Of a stretch of 64,000 nucleotides of DNA, positions 2,871-15,748 are shown piece by piece. Source of the stretch: Candidatus Zixiibacteriota bacterium. Lineage in GTDB: Bacteria > Zixibacteria > MSB-5A5 > GN15 > PGXB01. The DNA is taken from NCBI GenBank assembly GCA_900498245.1, contig LS998015.1, positions 919,224 to 983,223 on the forward strand. The letters are read 5' to 3'. Under the pieces are notes generated by a model that searched no databases, was not told the DNA's origin, and worked only from the letters and a program-made list of their open reading frames with translations. Position 1 is the first letter of the stretch, and each line of letters starts with the position of its first letter. The position numbers were made by a program, and so were the translations under genes.

Positions 2871-4127
2871 TCATCCGCCTTTCTGCATGAACTGCAGAAA
2901 TGACGACCGCAGAGTTTCGGACATCAGGCTCTTCTTGATTGGCGGTAATCGAAGAAATCCGCCGACCATTCCCCGCATGAATTTATGAGTCAGCCGCTGC
3001 GTGTCGGCGAACATCAGGTTCTGCAGGGTGCCCCGCTCCAGCGACTGCAGGATGATTCTCTCAAAGGTCGTTTCCGGATGCAGGACCCGTTCTTTTCTTT
3101 TGACCAGTGTCATCGAACCGGTAGCGCATTTCAATCCGCAAACCCCACAACCGATACAGAATTTTTCATCGACTTCCGGACCGCCCTCGGTTTTCATTTT
3201 GATGGCGTTTATCGGGCAGGCCGATGCGCAATCGCCGCATTCCGAGCAGTTTTCCGAAGTATGATGGGCGATAAAGGTCGAGGTGACAACGGCGTTGGGA
3301 TAGCCGAATCGGCTTATCCCCAGAAGGACATTACAGCAACAGCCGCAGCAGAAGCAAATGAAAGAAATATCCTTTTTGATATTGTCGGCGCACATAACCA
3401 GTCCCATTTCGCGGCACCGGTCGAGATTTTCCTTCATTTCGCTCTTGGAAACCGCCTTGCCGAAACCGTGCTGCACCATATAGTCGCTGCTCTCGCCGAA
3501 AGTCGAACAGGTGTCCAGGGGAATACTGCAGGTCTTTTTGCCGACATGCAGTTTCTCATGACGGCAGGAGCAAATCCCGATCGAGAATTTATTCGCTGAC
3601 TCGACAATGGATGAGGCTTTTTCATAATCGAGTATTTCCACATATTCCGCTTGGTCGATGGCCTCTTCATAGGGCAGAGCCCGCAGGGGGAAAACTCTTT
3701 TCCCGCCGGCCATATTGGCCCGATAGAAGGAATCATCGCCGTGGAGGTATTCGTTAAACAACCGGGCCCATTCTTTTAAATTAAGGTTATCGCCGGTCCG
3801 CATCATGGTAAATTCAAAAATTCCGATAACCAACGGTGAAAGAAGATAACGATATTCTCCGTTCATCCAGAGATCCATCACCAAGCCTTTAGCCGCCAGC
3901 CCCTCAAGTATTTTTTTCAGTTTCGCCGGCTCGAATCCGGTCGCCTTTAATATTTGCGGCAGAGTTGAAAGCCCATAGGGCATTTTCACGGCCACTTCCG
4001 CCTCGTCGGCGGAATACAACTCTTTAAGCACAGCATATAGCCGGTCGTTCCAGGGAGCGCGGGTCGGCATGTTGTCGATTTTCCGCCCCAGTTGCCGATA
4101 GATATCTTTGCCTGCCAGATGGCCCAT
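2871..4127 (-). CDS. 4Fe-4S dicluster protein with N-terminal helical domain
   Basis: A 418-residue protein. About the first 110 residues are helical and may be winged-helix-like (LSTLPQILKATGFEPAKLKKILEGL). The middle holds two unusual Cys groups, CSCRHEKLHVGKKTC and CFCCGCCCNVL. The C-terminal half has two ferredoxin motifs, CSECGDCASACP and CIGCGVCGLKC, each able to hold a 4Fe-4S cluster. Similar proteins occur in anaerobes next to redox genes, but no specific reaction is established. The start is fixed by a strong Shine-Dalgarno, GGAGGTGATAAG directly before ATG. The Cys-rich middle suggests a third metal site. It is likely a cytoplasmic electron carrier or redox-sensing protein. Confidence 0.8.
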   Translation of the reverse strand: MGHLAGKDIYRQLGRKIDNMPTRAPWNDRLYAVLKELYSADEAEVAVKMPYGLSTLPQILKATGFEPAKLKKILEGLAAKGLVMDLWMNGEYRYLLSPLVIGIFEFTMMRTGDNLNLKEWARLFNEYLHGDDSFYRANMAGGKRVFPLRALPYEEAIDQAEYVEILDYEKASSIVESANKFSIGICSCRHEKLHVGKKTCSIPLDTCSTFGESSDYMVQHGFGKAVSKSEMKENLDRCREMGLVMCADNIKKDISFICFCCGCCCNVLLGISRFGYPNAVVTSTFIAHHTSENCSECGDCASACPINAIKMKTEGGPEVDEKFCIGCGVCGLKCATGSMTLVKRKERVLHPETTFERIILQSLERGTLQNLMFADTQRLTHKFMRGMVGGFLRLPPIKKSLMSETLRSSFLQFMQKGG

Positions 4128-9033: not shown

Positions 9034-10458
9034 ATGTGGGAACTGATCAGCGCCAATAGAAGAAAGTCGTTCTTCCTGTTTGTCATAATGGGGACGTGCC
9101 TTATCCTTCTGGGGTATTTTATTGGCGCCGCCTATTATCCGCAGGGCGGCGGATTTATCGGTATCGGCATCGCCTTTTTCATCTGGATGATGCTGTCCGT
9201 CATCAGTTATTTCTCGGGCGATTCCATTCTTCTGGCGGTCAGCGGGGCGCGCGAGGTTACGCCCGACGTCCATCAGCAGTTATTTAATGTTGTCGAAGAG
9301 ATGAAAATTGCCGCCGGGCTTCCGGCGATGCCCAAGGTGTATATTATCGATTCCCCGGCTCCCAACGCTTTTGCCACCGGGCGAAAACCGGAAAATTGCG
9401 CTATCGCGGTCACGGCGGGTTTACTATCCCGCCTCAATCGCGATGAACTGCAGGGCGTGGTGGCCCATGAAACCTCGCACATCTTGAACCGCGACATTCA
9501 ATTTATGACTTTCGCCGGCGTGATGCTGGGAAGTATCGTCCTTATCTCGCAGGTCTTTGTCCGCGGTCTCTGGTTTTCGGGCGGCGGCAGCCGCTACCGC
9601 GGCCGCTCCCGCGATTCCGGGCAGGGGGCCGCCATCTTCATGATTGTCGCCATCGTCTTTGCCATTCTGGCGCCCATCTTTGCCCAACTTCTCTTTCTGG
9701 CAATCTCGCGGCGACGGGAATATCTGGCCGATGCCACCGGGGCCCGGCTGACCCGTTACCCCGAAGGTTTAGCTTCGGCGCTGGAGAAAATCGCCAGTTC
9801 GCCCGAAAAACTACAGACCGCCAATGACGCCACCGCCGGTTTGTATATCATAAATCCGTTGCAGGCTAATCGCTCCGACTGGAGCGCCTGGACCTCAACT
9901 CATCCCCCGATCGCCGAGCGAATCGCCATCCTGCGGGCTCTTTCCCAGGGCGCGAGTCTGGTCGATTATCAGAATGCATTTAACAAAATCAGGGGAAAGA
10001 AAGATACCGTCATTCCCGATTCCGGATTGAAAGATGCCACCCCCGTCCCGCTTCGCACCGCCGGCGCCCCGCTGGAAAAAGGAGCCGGGGCGCAAAAGCG
10101 AGAACTGGGTGATCTGATCCGGGCGGTAAACGGATTCCTGTTTTTAACCTGTGCCTGCGGTTTGAAAATTAAGATTCCGCCCGATTTTAAGAAAGAATCT
10201 ATCGCCTGTCCCCGCTGCGGACGGGAGAATAAGGTCCCTTCGGCGGAACTGGCCACATTGGCCGGAGTCGGCGCCATAATTTCCAAAGATGTTCCCGGTA
10301 TGTCGAAAGACGGCCCAACATCCATTTACAAACGCCGGGGAACCGGGTGGGAAACATTCAATTGCTCCTGCGGACGGCCCATTCAACTTTCACCGCAATT
10401 CCAGGGAAATGAAGTCACCTGCCCGAGTTGCGGCAAAAAAACATTGATTCAGCAATAA
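9034..10458 (+). CDS. M48 family metalloprotease with C-terminal zinc ribbons
   Basis: A 474-residue HtpX-like membrane protease. Two membrane helices lie in the first 65 residues; the zinc site is HETSH at 145-149, and the third ligand Glu lies in REYLADATGARL. A second hydrophobic pair follows residue 170. Unlike standard HtpX (about 290 residues) it has a C-terminal extension with two Cys4 zinc ribbons (CACGLKIKIPP...CPRCG and CSCGRPIQLSP...CPSCG). The pairing with lemA suggests quality control of membrane proteins. The zinc-ribbon tail may bind substrate or regulate activity; that part is inference. Confidence 0.9.
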   Translation: MWELISANRRKSFFLFVIMGTCLILLGYFIGAAYYPQGGGFIGIGIAFFIWMMLSVISYFSGDSILLAVSGAREVTPDVHQQLFNVVEEMKIAAGLPAMPKVYIIDSPAPNAFATGRKPENCAIAVTAGLLSRLNRDELQGVVAHETSHILNRDIQFMTFAGVMLGSIVLISQVFVRGLWFSGGGSRYRGRSRDSGQGAAIFMIVAIVFAILAPIFAQLLFLAISRRREYLADATGARLTRYPEGLASALEKIASSPEKLQTANDATAGLYIINPLQANRSDWSAWTSTHPPIAERIAILRALSQGASLVDYQNAFNKIRGKKDTVIPDSGLKDATPVPLRTAGAPLEKGAGAQKRELGDLIRAVNGFLFLTCACGLKIKIPPDFKKESIACPRCGRENKVPSAELATLAGVGAIISKDVPGMSKDGPTSIYKRRGTGWETFNCSCGRPIQLSPQFQGNEVTCPSCGKKTLIQQ

Positions 10459-10620
10459 GCGCACTTTCAACATAATTCAGAAAAATTCGATAACTGCCAT
10501 ATTTCGAACGGAATCTAATTATTGTCTCGCAGTCTACCGTCTTTTCACCGTTATTTTGAACTTTCCGGTTGCGTATCTGTTATTCCGGTGTAATAATGAG
10601 ACAACAGGAAAGGATTCTTT

Positions 10621-11232
10621 ATGAATTATTTTAAATCAATTGGTATAATTGCGGTTTCCGCCTTGCTTTTGGGATGTTCCTCCGCCGACAAAGGCACGGT
10701 CAAAGGCGGTCTGAAAGTATCCTCGGATATTAAACTGGACGGCAACCCGGCGACTGTCGCCGGCGTGACATTCCGCCCCCCCTCGGTTTGGAAAGATCTT
10801 GGCCCCAGCGGGATGAGGCAAGCCGATTATATGTATGGCCCGGCGGAAGGGGATTCCGAAGCGGCCAACATGGCGGTCTTCTATTTCGGGGCAACCTCCG
10901 GTGGCGCGGTCGGAAGCAATATCGAGAGATGGATCGGGCAAATGAGCATGCCGGACGGGAGCGATCCGCACAAGGCGGCCAAAACGACCGATTTCTCTGT
11001 TGACGGTATGCCGGCGCACCTGGTGGAACTGAACGGAACATATAACATGTCGATGGGCGGACCGATGATGGGCGGCGAGACAGTTCCCAAGCCGAATTAT
11101 AAAATGGCGGCGGTTGTTCTGGAAACACCCCAGGGAAATCTTTTCTTCAAACTGACCGGCCCGGAAAAGACCGCCGATGAAATGGCCGAAGCCTTCAAAG
11201 CAATGATTATGGATGTGAAAAAATCAGGATAA
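10621..11232 (+). CDS. Predicted lipoprotein, unknown function
   Basis: A 203-residue protein with a lipoprotein signal peptide ending LLLGC (Cys at about residue 19). The mature part contains a beta-rich domain resembling proteins of unknown function that carry a '..W....pS.MR.A.Y..P...GD.E.A...VfyFG...GG....N..rW..Q' pattern. No catalytic motif is visible. ATG at 10621 is preceded by AGGAAAGG. The gene appears monocistronic, 160 bases after the M48 gene and 110 bases before the HesB-like gene. Confidence 0.75.
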   Translation: MNYFKSIGIIAVSALLLGCSSADKGTVKGGLKVSSDIKLDGNPATVAGVTFRPPSVWKDLGPSGMRQADYMYGPAEGDSEAANMAVFYFGATSGGAVGSNIERWIGQMSMPDGSDPHKAAKTTDFSVDGMPAHLVELNGTYNMSMGGPMMGGETVPKPNYKMAAVVLETPQGNLFFKLTGPEKTADEMAEAFKAMIMDVKKSG

Positions 11233-11343
11233 CTGATTTATTTATAATGACTTCGACTTTGGAATTGCTTTTGGGCGAAAATTGATTATTTTTCCTGCGG
11301 TACTACTGTCCGCCGCCAATATTTTTGAGAGGAAGGATAACTA

Positions 11344-11661
11344 ATGCTGGTTGTTACTGATAAGGCAAGTGAGGAACTCAAAAAGGTTCTTGATTCCGAT
11401 CAAGCCAAAGGAAAATATCTTGTTTTATATTTTCAAGGGGCTGGCTGAAGCGGTCCCTCTGTGGGAATGGCTCTGGATGAGTCAATTAATGGATTGGATA
11501 AACTGGAATCGAACGGTGTCAATGCCTTCATCGATCCCAAATTGAATGAATACCTTACTTCTGCGGGTGACATAAATATCGATTTTATCTCTAATGAAAT
11601 GGGCCAGAGCGGATATCGCGTCACTGTGGGGGAAAGCAGTTGCGGCGATTGCCATTGCTGA
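11344..11661 (+). CDS. IscA/HesB-like selenoprotein (in-frame TGA read as selenocysteine)
   Basis: One continuous frame of 106 codons interrupted only by TGA at 11446-11448, codon 35. The N-terminal part (MLVVTDKASEELKKVL...) and the C-terminal part (SGPSVGMALDES...SSCGDCHC) are both recognisable as IscA/HesB-like. Codon 35 falls exactly where the family has its first cluster-binding Cys (G-x-G-C-[SG]-G-P), so reading TGA as Sec restores the motif GAG-U-SGPS. A suitable hairpin lies downstream of the TGA. HesB-like selenoproteins are an established family; this assignment rests on sequence only. Standard gene calling would give two fragments. GGAAGGA precedes the ATG and a strong terminator follows. 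Confidence 0.85.
11469..11483 (+). promoter_or_regulatory. Candidate bacterial SECIS hairpin
   Basis: Stem GGCTC / GAGTC (five pairs, one G-U) with apical loop TGGAT. Flanking T-A and further A-T pairs extend the stem past a one-base bulge. The loop starts 25 nt after the TGA and has G as its second base, which fits the known bacterial SECIS pattern (G among the first two loop bases, 16-37 nt from the UGA). It would recruit SelB. Confidence 0.65.
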
Positions 11662-11683
11662 TGGATTTCAAATATTTCTTGAT

Positions 11684-11716
11684 AATCTGCCGGTCTCGAC
11701 CGGCAGATTTTTTTTA
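11684..11716 (+). terminator. Rho-independent terminator after the HesB-like selenoprotein gene
   Basis: Inverted repeat AATCTGCCGGT / ACCGGCAGATT with loop CTCG, followed by a run of eight T. It separates this gene from the radical SAM locus. Confidence 0.9.
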
Positions 11717-11859
11717 TCCTTCATATTGCGATTGCCGGGGGCCGGACCCCGGCTTGACTCCTATCCTGACATGCGAATGCTCGCCTTTCAATTCAATTCA
11801 AAATGGGTCAGCTTTTACTATTTTGCCCATGCCGATTTCTCTTCAATATTAAAAATGGC

Positions 11860-11887
11860 TTGACAATGTCCCAAATTTTCATAATTT
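11860..11887 (+). promoter_or_regulatory. Candidate sigma-70-type promoter of the radical SAM / peptide operon
   Basis: TTGACA at 11860-11865 and TAATTT at 11882-11887 with a 16-base spacer, about 100 bases upstream of the maturase ATG. The 330-base gap between the selenoprotein gene and the maturase holds only this element and the preceding terminator. Confidence 0.5.
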
Positions 11888-11991
11888 TACGCATCGAAAG
11901 GTACTAGCGTAAGACTACCGGATTCCCATTGCGCGGTACCGAATTGGCTGGTTCACAAATCCATACGTGAAGGACAAGTGCGACTCCAGCA

Positions 11992-13320
11992 ATGAAACCG
12001 TCCCGCTACAACATCTTTATCGACTTGGGTGAAAATCGGCGGCTGGCTTTCAACAGTGTCAGTGCCACCCTGGCCGAAATCTTTCCCGAGGATCTTCCTA
12101 TCGTCGAAAAGCTTCTGCAGAAATCTGCCCGGCCGGAATCCCCCAAGGAAAAAGAGATCTTTGAAGTCATGCTGGAGGGGGGGTATCTTGTCGATGAGGG
12201 CGTCGATGAACTGGAGTTTCTGAAAGTCAAAAACCGCAGCCGCCGCTTCGACAAAGCCACCTTCATGCTGACCATCGCGCCGACCCTGGCCTGCAATTTT
12301 CGCTGTGAATATTGTTTCGAGAATCAGCGCAAAGAAAAAATGACCGAGGAGGTGGAACGGGCCCTCTTGGCCTTCAGCGAAAAACATATCAAGCGCTCGG
12401 AAGCGGCGGTCATAACCTGGTTCGGCGGAGAACCGACCCTATGCGTTCCCACCATTGAGAGAATTCAGACCGGAATTGCCGCGCTCGCCCAAAAATACGA
12501 TGTCACCATGGAGCCGACATCGATTATCACCAACGGTTATCTTATGGATCGCAAAATGGCGGAGCGGCTCAAGGCGGTGGGAGTAGCCGAGGCTCAGGTT
12601 ACCCTCGACGGACCGCGGGAAACGCACGATAAAAGGCGTAAACTCCATAACGGCGGCGGAACCTACGATCGCATAATGGCCAATCTCCGCGAGTCGGCCG
12701 ATATCCTCAAGATCGTCATTCGCGTCAATGTCGATAAAAGCAACTATCTGGAATCGCTGGCCATCCTGAAAGATCTTCGCCAAAACGACCTTATCTCCAA
12801 AATTTATATATACTTCGCTCAAGTGAACGACGCCGACGGAGTCTGCGCCGATGTCAAGGGACAATGCCTTACTACCCGGGATTTCGCTGTCAATCAGGTA
12901 AAAATGTACAGGGACCTAATAGATAACGGCTTCTACCAGATCGAATATCCGTCGATTGCGCCGGGCGGTCACTGCGGCGCCGACACCGACGGTTCCTTCG
13001 TGGTCACCCCGACCGGAGACTTGTTCAAATGCTGGGAGGAAATCGCCGCCGATAAGAGCCTATCGATCGGCAACATCATGGATGATGATCCGGCCCCGTA
13101 TCAGAAAATCAACCGCAATCAATACTTGGCCTGGGATCCATTCGAAAAAAAATTCTGCCGGGAGTGCGATGTTTTGCCAATCTGCATGGGCGGATGTCCC
13201 AAGCATGGCATGAACCAGAATAATCGCGATATCGGCAGTTGCTGCAATTGGAAATACAATTTGAATGATATGCTTTCCCTGAGGTACCTCTGTGATCAAA
13301 GAAAGGAGGTGAAAGAATGA
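11992..13320 (+). CDS. Radical SAM/SPASM peptide maturase
   Basis: A 442-residue radical SAM enzyme. Residues 1-90 form an N-terminal module starting PSRYNIFIDLGENRR, a layout shared by peptide-modifying SPASM enzymes, possibly for peptide recognition. The SAM cluster motif is CNFRCEYC at 101-108, with WFGGEPTL later. The C-terminal SPASM region has HCGADTDGSFVVTPTGDLFKCW and CRECDVLPICMGGCPKHG...GSCC, ligands for two auxiliary 4Fe-4S clusters. Such enzymes install thioether or C-C crosslinks in small peptides. The stop overlaps the ATG of a 27-residue peptide gene (ATGA), so that peptide is the obvious substrate. The exact modification is unknown. Confidence 0.9.
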   Translation: MKPSRYNIFIDLGENRRLAFNSVSATLAEIFPEDLPIVEKLLQKSARPESPKEKEIFEVMLEGGYLVDEGVDELEFLKVKNRSRRFDKATFMLTIAPTLACNFRCEYCFENQRKEKMTEEVERALLAFSEKHIKRSEAAVITWFGGEPTLCVPTIERIQTGIAALAQKYDVTMEPTSIITNGYLMDRKMAERLKAVGVAEAQVTLDGPRETHDKRRKLHNGGGTYDRIMANLRESADILKIVIRVNVDKSNYLESLAILKDLRQNDLISKIYIYFAQVNDADGVCADVKGQCLTTRDFAVNQVKMYRDLIDNGFYQIEYPSIAPGGHCGADTDGSFVVTPTGDLFKCWEEIAADKSLSIGNIMDDDPAPYQKINRNQYLAWDPFEKKFCRECDVLPICMGGCPKHGMNQNNRDIGSCCNWKYNLNDMLSLRYLCDQRKEVKE

Positions 13321-13400
13321 AGATTATTCAGAAGAGCAAAGAAACCCGCAAGCCGTGCTTCTGCTATCTGCAGCTTTGGATCATCTACCCGGTCTGGTGA
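13317..13400 (+). CDS. 27-residue putative RiPP precursor peptide 1
   Basis: A 27-residue ORF that overlaps the maturase stop by four bases and is preceded by a near-perfect Shine-Dalgarno, AAGGAGGTGA at 13303-13312, indicating very strong translation. The N-terminal half is basic and polar (MKIIQKSKETRKP). The second half begins with C14-F-C16-Y and continues hydrophobic and aromatic to a final Trp (tail IIYPVW). The peptide 200 bases downstream has the same length and an almost identical N-terminal half, which is strong evidence that it is translated. By position it should be the target of the flanking radical SAM enzymes, with C14-x-C16 and the aromatic tail as likely core. Confidence 0.85.
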   Translation: MKIIQKSKETRKPCFCYLQLWIIYPVW

Positions 13401-13601
13401 TTTAGCCGGGTGGCTAAGATGCTGGAAAGACTGAGAGAAGCCTGAACCGACGGCCAAACCGCCCGTTTTCTTCGCGACGCCGGTTCGCAAGATATCGGCC
13501 TTTCGGAGAAAATGAGGTTTCGGGCTTACGCAAAAGATGGCGGATGAAAATCGGCCATCACAGGTCATTCATAATACCCATCCCCCGAGGAGGTGAAACG
13601 A

Positions 13602-13685
13602 ATGCGCATCGTCCAGAAATCAAAGGAGACCCGGAAACCGTGTCCCTGCTACAAAATTATGTTCTATATTCTCCCTCCGTGGTGA
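13602..13685 (+). CDS. 27-residue putative RiPP precursor peptide 2
   Basis: Also 27 residues, with GAGGAGGTGA just upstream of ATG at 13602. The first 17 positions differ from peptide 1 only at residues 2 (R for K), 4 (V for I) and 15 (P for F): QKSKETRKPC is identical and C-x-C-Y is kept. The tail diverges (KIMFYILPPW) but keeps length, hydrophobicity and the terminal Trp. A conserved leader with a variable core is the classic RiPP pattern. A strong terminator follows 26 bases after the stop, so the maturase and the two peptides form one transcription unit. Confidence 0.85.
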   Translation: MRIVQKSKETRKPCPCYKIMFYILPPW

Positions 13686-13711
13686 TCCTGAGGTAGAATA
13701 ATCCAGATTAT

Positions 13712-13748
13712 GGGAAGGGCGGCCCGAATCGGGCCCCCTTTCCTTTTA
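13712..13748 (+). terminator. Terminator closing the maturase-peptide unit
   Basis: Hairpin with inner arms GGCCCG / CGGGCC (loop AAT) and outer arms GGAAGGG / CCCTTTCC, followed by TTTTATA. Confidence 0.85.
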
Positions 13749-13805
13749 TAAAGTGAAAGTTTTTCGAAAAGAATTGATTAATATCTTGAAGCGGAAGAGT
13801 GACAG

Positions 13806-14855
13806 ATGAATCGAGAAATGCCGACCATGATGGGCTGGGAAATAACGCGCCGCTGCAATCTGACCTGCCCGCACTGCTACAGCGCCGCCACCAGAAAAGC
13901 GCTGAATGAATTGACGACCACGGAGTGTCTGGAAATTGTCAGGACCATCGGTGAAATGGGCGTGAAAATGGTGGGCTGGACCGGGGGAGAACCGCTTCTG
14001 CGGGAGGACTTGGAAGAAATCGCCGGTGCGGCGCGCAAGTTCGGCATGAAACAGGGAGTTACCACTAATGGCGTTCTGCTTGATGAAAAGAGGGGAAAGA
14101 GCCTGATGAAGGCCGGCGTGACGGCGATGCAGGTCAGCATCGACGGGACCACGGCGGAACGGAATCGTCCCATGAGAAACGCCAGTGACGAGGAATTCGA
14201 AAAAGCCCTCGAGGCCGTGCGCGTATCGGTCCGCCTCGGCTTTAAGACCAGTCTGGCGATGATGATCGGACAGGAAAATCTTGATGATGCCCCCCGCTTC
14301 ATTCATATGGCCAAAAAAATGAAAGCGCACGTCGTCCGTTTCTCCGGGTTTGTGCCTCACGGACGGGGCAAGGGACAGCGAAGCCGCCTCGAGTTCACTA
14401 CCCGCCTGGGTGAATTGAAAGCTTTTGTTTCACAATTTACCGGTTATGAAAAGATGCCGATCGCCTTTGATCCCGGTTTCGGGCCCCTGCCTCCCTATTA
14501 TGAGTTTCATCAATGCATTGCCGGCAAGCAGATGTTTTATTTATCATGCATCGGAGATGTATATCCCTGCACATCCTTACTGAGTAAGGAATTTGTCGTC
14601 GGCAATGTCCGCCAGAGGCCCCTGATTGACATCTGGAACGATCCCAATATGACCAAGATGGCTGAAATTCCGCGCGAAAAAATTCATGGCCCCTGCCGAA
14701 CCTGCCGCTATATGACCGTCTGCCACGGAGCCTGCCGAGGCGCCAGTTATGCCCATACCGGTGACCTCTTTGCCTCTTTCCCGGTTTGTCTGAGACGGGT
14801 CAGGATCAAGAAGAATCCCGCCATGCTTGTCAAAAACGTGAGGAGTTTGAAATAA
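13806..14855 (+). CDS. Second radical SAM/SPASM enzyme (PqqE/NirJ-like)
   Basis: A 349-residue radical SAM protein with motif CNLTCPHC at residues 17-24, followed by GWTGGEPLLREDL and VSIDG. Its C-terminal SPASM-type region has HQCIAGKQMFYLSCIGDVYPC and CRTCRYMTVCHGACRG. The layout is that of PqqE, heme-maturation NirJ/AhbD and other peptide- or porphyrin-modifying enzymes, so the family name alone does not decide the substrate. It lies 120 bases behind the peptide genes on the same strand, after the terminator. A role as second maturase, or in a later processing step, is the simplest inference. No transporter or protease gene is adjacent. Confidence 0.85.
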   Translation: MNREMPTMMGWEITRRCNLTCPHCYSAATRKALNELTTTECLEIVRTIGEMGVKMVGWTGGEPLLREDLEEIAGAARKFGMKQGVTTNGVLLDEKRGKSLMKAGVTAMQVSIDGTTAERNRPMRNASDEEFEKALEAVRVSVRLGFKTSLAMMIGQENLDDAPRFIHMAKKMKAHVVRFSGFVPHGRGKGQRSRLEFTTRLGELKAFVSQFTGYEKMPIAFDPGFGPLPPYYEFHQCIAGKQMFYLSCIGDVYPCTSLLSKEFVVGNVRQRPLIDIWNDPNMTKMAEIPREKIHGPCRTCRYMTVCHGACRGASYAHTGDLFASFPVCLRRVRIKKNPAMLVKNVRSLK

Positions 14856-14998
14856 ATCCGGCGGTTATTCGCCAATTAAATTTATTACCCCATTGATTTT
14901 CTCTTCCGATTTGTATATCGTGTACTAAATTGTCGTTATTTATTGAGAAAAAGAATTCCTATATCCCTGAGTGTACCTTGAAAGAATGGAGGACAAGA

Positions 14999-15748
14999 GT
15001 GAGGAACAGCAGGATTATTCTGTTCTTAATTGTGATTCTTATGGCCGGCCTGATGCCGCTTCTCGCGGAAAATCCCCCTGCGGGACAGGCCGACTCCACC
15101 CATATCATGACCATGGAGCGACCTCGCCTCGACGGGTTGAAGCAGTTTCATGATGTTGTTCGCCCTATCTGGCATACATATCTGCCGGAGAAGAACTATA
15201 AGGCCATTAGGGAATCGGTAGAACCTTTCCAGAAGAGCGTTCAAATCCTTATGGAGGCGCCGATCCCCGACTATTTTCAACATAAAAAGGAACAGATTGA
15301 AGCCGGGCGCAAAGCCATCGCCGACGCCATCGCGGCGTTTGATACGGTCGCAAAGAAGAATGATGATGCCGAGCTGGAGAAAGCCGTGGAAAATGCCCAC
15401 ACCGCCTTTGAAAATCTGGTGCGCGTGATCTCGCCCCGCATGGCGGAAATTGATAATTTCCATCTGGTCCTGTATCCTCTCTGGCATAAGGCTCTGCCGG
15501 CGTCCGATTGGACCTCGATCAAAGCCACCGCGCCGGTGCTTCGGACCGAAATGGATTCCCTGATGGCGGCGCCGATTCCGGAGTGGGCCAAAGAAAAAGA
15601 TCAGCAGATAAACGAACAGCGGACGGCTCTGAATAAAGCCGTTACCGATTTTTGCGAAACTTGTAAAGCCAATAAAGACGAGGAAATCAAGGACAAGTTG
15701 ACCATACTGCACCAGCATTTCATGGCCCTCGACGGTGTGTTTGAGTAA
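14999..15748 (+). CDS. Exported protein with two tandem His-containing helical repeats
   Basis: I do not recognise the family. GTG at 14999 is chosen because GGAGG lies six bases upstream; it yields 249 residues beginning with a signal peptide (IILFLIVILMAGLMPLLA). The mature part is two repeats of about 95 residues: FHDVVRPIWHTYLPEKNYK...APIPDYFQHKKEQI and FHLVLYPLWHKALPASDWT...APIPEWAKEKDQQI. Each keeps F-H, P-x-W-H, L-P and A-P-I-P. The paired His suggest metal or heme binding in four-helix units, but no CxxCH is present. It lies 140 bases after the second radical SAM gene and ends at its own terminator. Confidence 0.75.
   Translation: MRNSRIILFLIVILMAGLMPLLAENPPAGQADSTHIMTMERPRLDGLKQFHDVVRPIWHTYLPEKNYKAIRESVEPFQKSVQILMEAPIPDYFQHKKEQIEAGRKAIADAIAAFDTVAKKNDDAELEKAVENAHTAFENLVRVISPRMAEIDNFHLVLYPLWHKALPASDWTSIKATAPVLRTEMDSLMAAPIPEWAKEKDQQINEQRTALNKAVTDFCETCKANKDEEIKDKLTILHQHFMALDGVFE

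Follow-up and report, generated by a model that had tools for sequence, protein, structure and literature searches.

A Zixibacteria locus with two twin short peptides between two radical SAM/SPASM enzymes: a probable RiPP module on a sister branch to Clo7bot

Introduction

Two twin open reading frames of only 27 codons, set between the genes for two radical SAM/SPASM enzymes in a Zixibacteria genome, raise the question of whether they encode substrates of these enzymes, and of what the enzymes would make from them. The locus occupies positions 11992-14855 (+) of the window, i.e., the whole stretch of 64,000 nucleotides that was analysed, in which enzyme 1, peptide A, peptide B and enzyme 2 follow one another on one strand. 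Taken as a whole, the locus is best explained, with good confidence, as one that makes one or two RiPPs by way of two radical SAM enzymes. It offers a compact, testable three-part module, whose precursors are small enough to synthesise, from a phylum without described RiPP chemistry in the literature searched; the literature on Zixibacteria and RiPPs, judged by titles and counts, gave passing mentions only. The constant pairing of an RRE-bearing with an RRE-less enzyme would help to show how two radical SAM enzymes share one peptide.

Organization of the locus

Enzyme 1 (11992..13320, +; 442 aa) is a radical SAM/SPASM peptide maturase according to its NCBIfam and Pfam hits, fused to a predicted RRE. 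Its TGA stop shares the tetranucleotide ATGA (13317-13320) with the start codon of precursor peptide A (13317..13400, +; 27 aa, MKIIQKSKETRKPCFCYLQLWIIYPVW), which is preceded by the ribosome binding site AAAGGAGGTGA (13302..13312, +). Precursor peptide B (13602..13685, +; 27 aa, MRIVQKSKETRKPCPCYKIMFYILPPW) carries the consensus core of the family and has the ribosome binding site GAGGAGGTGA (13587..13596, +). Both binding sites are kept in L033, the nearest relative, which belongs to the same genus. This layout bears out the first-pass annotation, which had described two 27-residue frames between two SPASM radical SAM genes, each with a strong ribosome binding site and the first overlapping the maturase stop. 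A 30-aa version of peptide B, starting at a GTG (13593), was rejected, as that start overlaps the ribosome binding site and the homologues begin at ATG.

Enzyme 2 (13806..14855, +; 349 aa) is a radical SAM/SPASM protein, and is separated from peptide B by a GC-rich hairpin followed by UUUUAU (13712..13743, +; centroid -26.7 kcal/mol, MFE -27.3, z -3.5). The hairpin is retained in L033 with altered bases and preserved pairing. It is likely a partial terminator, through which the peptide transcript could exceed that of enzyme 2. A terminator-like hairpin behind enzyme 2, at the end of the unit (14860..14873, +), is a weak pattern match, and an Rfam scan of 10400-15100 gave no match.

Upstream of the locus, a HesB/IscA-like ORF (window 11344-11664, +) contains an in-frame TGA at 11446-11448 (QGAG-U-SGPS) that is conserved in L033. 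The host genome carries a tRNA-Sec (71.9 bits, C1:2493252-2493343), and the ORF is probably a selenoprotein split by gene callers. It was considered as a part of the system and set aside: although L033 retains it, the modules of other genera have no upstream gene in common with this locus.

Conservation of the short peptides

Since both peptides are short, beneath the usual gene-calling limits, they might be chance open frames without a product. Comparison with L033 leaves this reading almost no probability. Enzymes 1 and 2 are 80% and 91% identical between the two genomes, and both peptides are identical in amino acid sequence, with 12 synonymous codon differences and 0 replacements; the start codon of peptide A is ATG in the window and TTG in L033, and little of the ~200-base stretch separating the ORFs can be aligned. 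A rough estimate, which takes about one in four random changes to be silent, places the probability of 12/12 silent changes near 1e-7. Peptides A and B are under purifying selection.

A single filter (24-52 aa, a strong ribosome binding site, a loose start motif and a Cys) was applied to 17 related loci, and at least one passing peptide is present in each of the 17 modules. Within the modules 26 peptides pass (0.405 per kb), against 4 outside on either strand (0.010 per kb), a ~40-fold ratio that is somewhat optimistic because the filter was modelled on peptides already seen; the zero failing modules and the near-empty background stand despite this bias. The 12 to 0 ratio and the enrichment in 17/17 modules together refute the chance-frame reading. 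The first-pass annotation had named two findings that would speak against a RiPP locus, namely homologous maturase loci without such a peptide and short frames lacking conservation at the synonymous versus nonsynonymous level. Neither was encountered, and its RiPP reading is supported by the peptide in every module tested and the synonymous-only change in L033.

Peptides A and B are the only two copies found in a search of the 3.5 Mb host genome. They agree at 14 of their 17 N-terminal positions and differ at 2, 4 and 15, in line with the near identity earlier ascribed to the twins over this stretch. Neither matches a model in NCBIfam or Pfam.

Distribution and gene order

Judged by enzyme 2, the module is present in 19 of 132 Zixibacteria genomes (~1 in 7) and in 14 of the 78 of good quality. 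Among the Zixibacteria searched, and where the flanks are readable, enzyme 2 is found only with this peptide system and directly follows an enzyme 1 in every module; G067 ends at a contig edge and was left unjudged, and the enzyme 1 of G077 is truncated at a contig end. The module also occurs in one Acidobacteria-labelled MAG (L039). Across 347 genomes of that phylum enzyme 2 was found in one, the starting genome of L039 itself, and this occurrence could reflect either transfer or faulty binning. In a tree of 104 sequences, the 21 enzyme 1 sequences with an adjacent enzyme 2 form one clade (SH-aLRT 100) that excludes both the Clo7bot maturases and the single-enzyme MIYLIDP systems.

The order of enzyme 1 and enzyme 2 is constant, and in G039 and G040 their genes overlap by ATGA, which suggests their joint synthesis. 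The peptide genes are found in the interval between those of the enzymes, ahead of enzyme 1 (L118, L123, L125, L126) or behind enzyme 2 (L120). This variable placement bears on the idea that the short ORFs serve not as substrates but as regulatory leader peptides, with the hairpin at 13712-13743 as the means of controlling enzyme 2. The conserved terminator-like hairpin directly 3' of peptide B would suit such a role; the positions of the peptides elsewhere, and a conservation that tracks amino acids while synonymous change is free, make it very improbable.

No conserved dedicated exporter, protease or immunity gene was found beside the module in the neighbour clusters across loci. Each cluster is common to at most 4 loci and none repeatedly accompanies the module, which we therefore regard as a self-contained unit. 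The lack of a conserved protease or exporter is unusual for a secreted RiPP and counts against the main reading. It would fit a peptide-derived cofactor or metal ligand that is retained in the cell, by analogy to mycofactocin and PQQ, as would the scores of enzyme 2 near PqqE, MftC, AhbD and NirJ and the strong conservation of the core across genera. Nevertheless, several different peptides can occur per locus (four in G027), G085 has two loci, the core varies greatly in some genera, and no conserved partner oxidoreductase is found among the neighbours; we consider a retained cofactor unlikely.

Structure of the two enzymes

SPASM peptide maturases carry the motif CxxxCxxC together with CX9-15GX4C, CX2CX5CX3C and a final C, and this set is complete in both enzymes. 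Enzyme 1 has the radical SAM site CNFxCxYC and the full SPASM set C328-x13-G-x4-C347, C389-x2-C-x5-C-x3-C402 and C417, and its Cys columns are conserved in all members covering them in a 58-sequence alignment. A further pair in enzyme 1, C285/C292 (C-x6-C, window 12844-12867), lies outside the SPASM motif; these residues are present in 44/57 and 49/58 superfamily members, respectively, and are invariant in the 14-sequence alignment A2.

The model of enzyme 1 (pLDDT 92) has CteB (5why, Z 27.5) as its nearest structure, and the top structural matches comprise CteB, sulphatase-maturating enzymes, ChlB and TigE, of which CteB and TigE match over the full length. Residues 1-90, modelled alone (pLDDT 93.8), resemble RRE-bearing RiPP proteins, i.e., TigE (Z 9.0), TbiB1 (8.2), MccB (7.8), lasso synthetase B1 (7.7) and the PbtF RRE (7.0). 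On this model, the N-terminus of enzyme 1 is predicted to be a leader-binding RRE fold, which spans residues 1-85 (11992..12246, +) with three strands followed by three helices. The locus combines two features of an RRE-dependent RiPP system, a predicted RRE fold on the maturase (Z 7.0 to 9.0) and a conserved short precursor adjoining it.

Enzyme 2 begins at the radical SAM core, with no N-terminal extension and no RRE. No cysteine of the SPASM set is missing, and these residues are conserved, as are those of its radical SAM site. Among curated families it comes closest to AhbD, NirJ, PqqE and the mycofactocin enzyme MftC, at 145 to 168 bits, far below all of the cut-offs; the 145 bits on the MftC model TIGR03962 compare with a cut-off of 265.

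The peptide family

All 28 peptides collected contain Cys, 27 of them at least two and one a single residue. The 12 that align closely give the consensus MKFIEKPKxxxxKPCPCYxxLFxILPPW, in which the Pro before C-x-C, the second Cys and the tail Ile are invariant, and the first Cys and the tail Pro nearly so. The spacing from C-x-C to Ile is free of gaps in 11/12 of these KPC-type peptides. Across genera conservation lies at the two ends, in the first residues, M-[KR]-x-[IV], and in a C-terminal core, [KR]PCPC[YL]xxLFxILPP, with a variable stretch between them; the core of the broader family may be written [KR]PCxCYxxLFxILPPW. The variable part is a linker after residue 7, and conservation is highest in the C-terminal half. 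The first-pass annotation had seen a conserved leader and a variable core, a description that holds between the two twins but not across genera, where the C-terminal core is conserved and the linker varies.

The common core, found across genera, is that of peptide B. Peptide A represents a second core type, [KR]PC[FW]CYxxLWIIYPV, also present in L033 and in another genus (G085/L113); no second peptide was found in the three forward frames beside the peptide A of G085. Cores that are related yet distinct, and in every case contain Cys, occur in the second locus of G085 and in G040, G003 and G026-G028.

Proposed mechanism of action

The genes, the selection on the peptides, the co-occurrence of the parts, the predicted RRE and the cluster ligands are read from sequences or models. 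On this basis the case that the peptides are substrates of the two enzymes is strong. The RRE of enzyme 1 would hold an N-terminal recognition sequence of about M-[KR]-[FILY]-[IV]-x-x-[PS]. Enzyme 1, with one SAM-binding cluster and two auxiliary iron-sulphur clusters, would generate a 5'-deoxyadenosyl radical and oxidatively join one or both cysteines of C-x-C to the hydrophobic C-terminal segment. The C-terminal region is the likely acceptor because of the fixed spacing from C-x-C to the invariant Ile. Enzyme 2 would probably add a second modification, either on the precursor bound to enzyme 1 or as part of a complex of the two enzymes, since it has no RRE and always occurs with enzyme 1. 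Both the order of action and any use of the product are points that we infer.

Cysteine thioethers are favoured as the cross-links because Cys is the sole residue common to all cores, and we give them an even chance or slightly better. The acceptor would differ from that of the PapB-type ranthipeptides, for which the motif is Cys-X3-Asp/Glu (PMC9413430): no Asp/Glu follows Cys in peptides A and B, so that PapB-type acceptors are absent, and enzyme 1 scores 125 bits against the PapB cut-off of 340. Moreover, the great variation of the peptides in some genera, as in the G027 locus, means that one shared chemistry is not assured.

The peptides may instead be RiPP precursors with no Cys thioether, in which the enzymes introduce C-C or C-O aromatic links, a cyclopropane on Ile/Val or an epimerisation, and Cys stays free or binds a metal. 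The conserved aromatics and Ile/Pro of the core are compatible with such chemistry, two different enzymes suggest two reactions, and there is a precedent in the radical SAM enzyme TvgB, which forms cyclopropylglycine from Val by C-C chemistry (PMC9062424). Set against this are the Cys in 28/28 peptides, usually twice, while the aromatic positions vary, and the nearest curated relatives, which act on Cys-rich peptides. We hold this alternative to be the less favoured, at somewhat under one chance in three, and retain thioether cross-linking as the working proposal.

Relationship to known systems

In the libraries searched, no named family matches the peptides or the enzyme pair. No NCBIfam model covers the peptides, neither enzyme reaches the cut-off of an equivalog there, and the genes are consequently likely to be missed or generically named in current annotation. 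The best curated full-length match of enzyme 1 is the Clo7bot maturase model TIGR04334, at 344 bits against a cut-off of 600, whereas the genuine Clo7bot maturases L052 and L054, of the same superfamily, score 776 and 720. The peptide model TIGR04333 (cut-off 31 bits) matches neither peptides A and B nor a relative's peptide. The Clo7bot peptides start much like those of the window family, with MKYIVKP compared to MKFIEKP, and likewise lie beside the maturase; in a profile comparison only nine leader residues align. The Clo7bot core has many cysteines, whereas the window family has two, in C-x-C, with an ILPPW tail, as well as a second radical SAM enzyme and a separate branch of the tree. The system of the window is a sister branch to Clo7bot, distinguished by a second enzyme and by its new core motif. 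In the open-access literature searched, no paper on Clo7bot, TIGR04333, TIGR04334 or TIGR04463 was found.

The TIGR04463 maturases of Cys-rich RiPPs and CefB (NF038107) share the superfamily and the domain plan with enzyme 1, which scores 311 bits against 525 and 223 against 600, respectively. The SCIFF maturase CteB, the top structural match, is likewise a SPASM protein; enzyme 1 reaches 80 bits on TIGR03974 against 425, and the window peptides have two cysteines rather than six in forty-five residues. Thuricin CD, compared here by its organization, also has two radical SAM enzymes (TrnC/TrnD) and two precursor peptides, the sequences of which we take to be unlike peptides A and B. Of the two enzymes at the locus, enzyme 1 alone carries an RRE-like domain, as judged by model and alignment. 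The two radical SAM enzymes of thuricin CD form a tight complex and act only together (PMC12093266), a precedent for joint action of enzymes 1 and 2.

The first-pass annotation knew of no named RiPP class for these peptides, which stands insofar as no named family was matched; the system is not isolated, however, as its superfamily includes the Clo7bot, TIGR04463 and CefB maturases. Membership of enzyme 1 in this large radical SAM/SPASM superfamily makes the system a new branch and not a class without relatives. A separate class of its own is possible. More specifically, and only tentatively, the module may define a RiPP class in its own right, seen in these searches almost exclusively in Zixibacteria, whose two enzymes, one with an RRE and one lacking it, would together build a new cross-linked C-x-C-aromatic-ILPP ring system.

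Single-maturase systems with MIYLIDP...PLYGIP peptides share the superfamily and the phylum, and have similar short peptides, but form a separate clade with a different core and without this kind of enzyme 2. Peptides of the type MIYLIDP...C...PLYGIP occur phylum-wide beside a single radical SAM maturase (L022-L031, L067), and the one example tested has no match in NCBIfam. The host genome itself holds two paralogous single-maturase systems with short peptides of their own, MVYLVDPKTVRNFCIVKCGVVYPLYGIRCGDLTI in L139 (reverse strand, 3894-3998 of the reverse complement) and MTWIVEPNAIVAG... in L132 (5556-5747). Elsewhere in the superfamily, a Desulfobacterales MAG has four maturases in tandem (L048 1936-7296), and in Thermus igniterrae a peptide, MRWVVKPGLRIAPSGDCGYNCGQNSGCGINTKLW, with no NCBIfam match, directly follows a superfamily maturase (L071 3803-3907).
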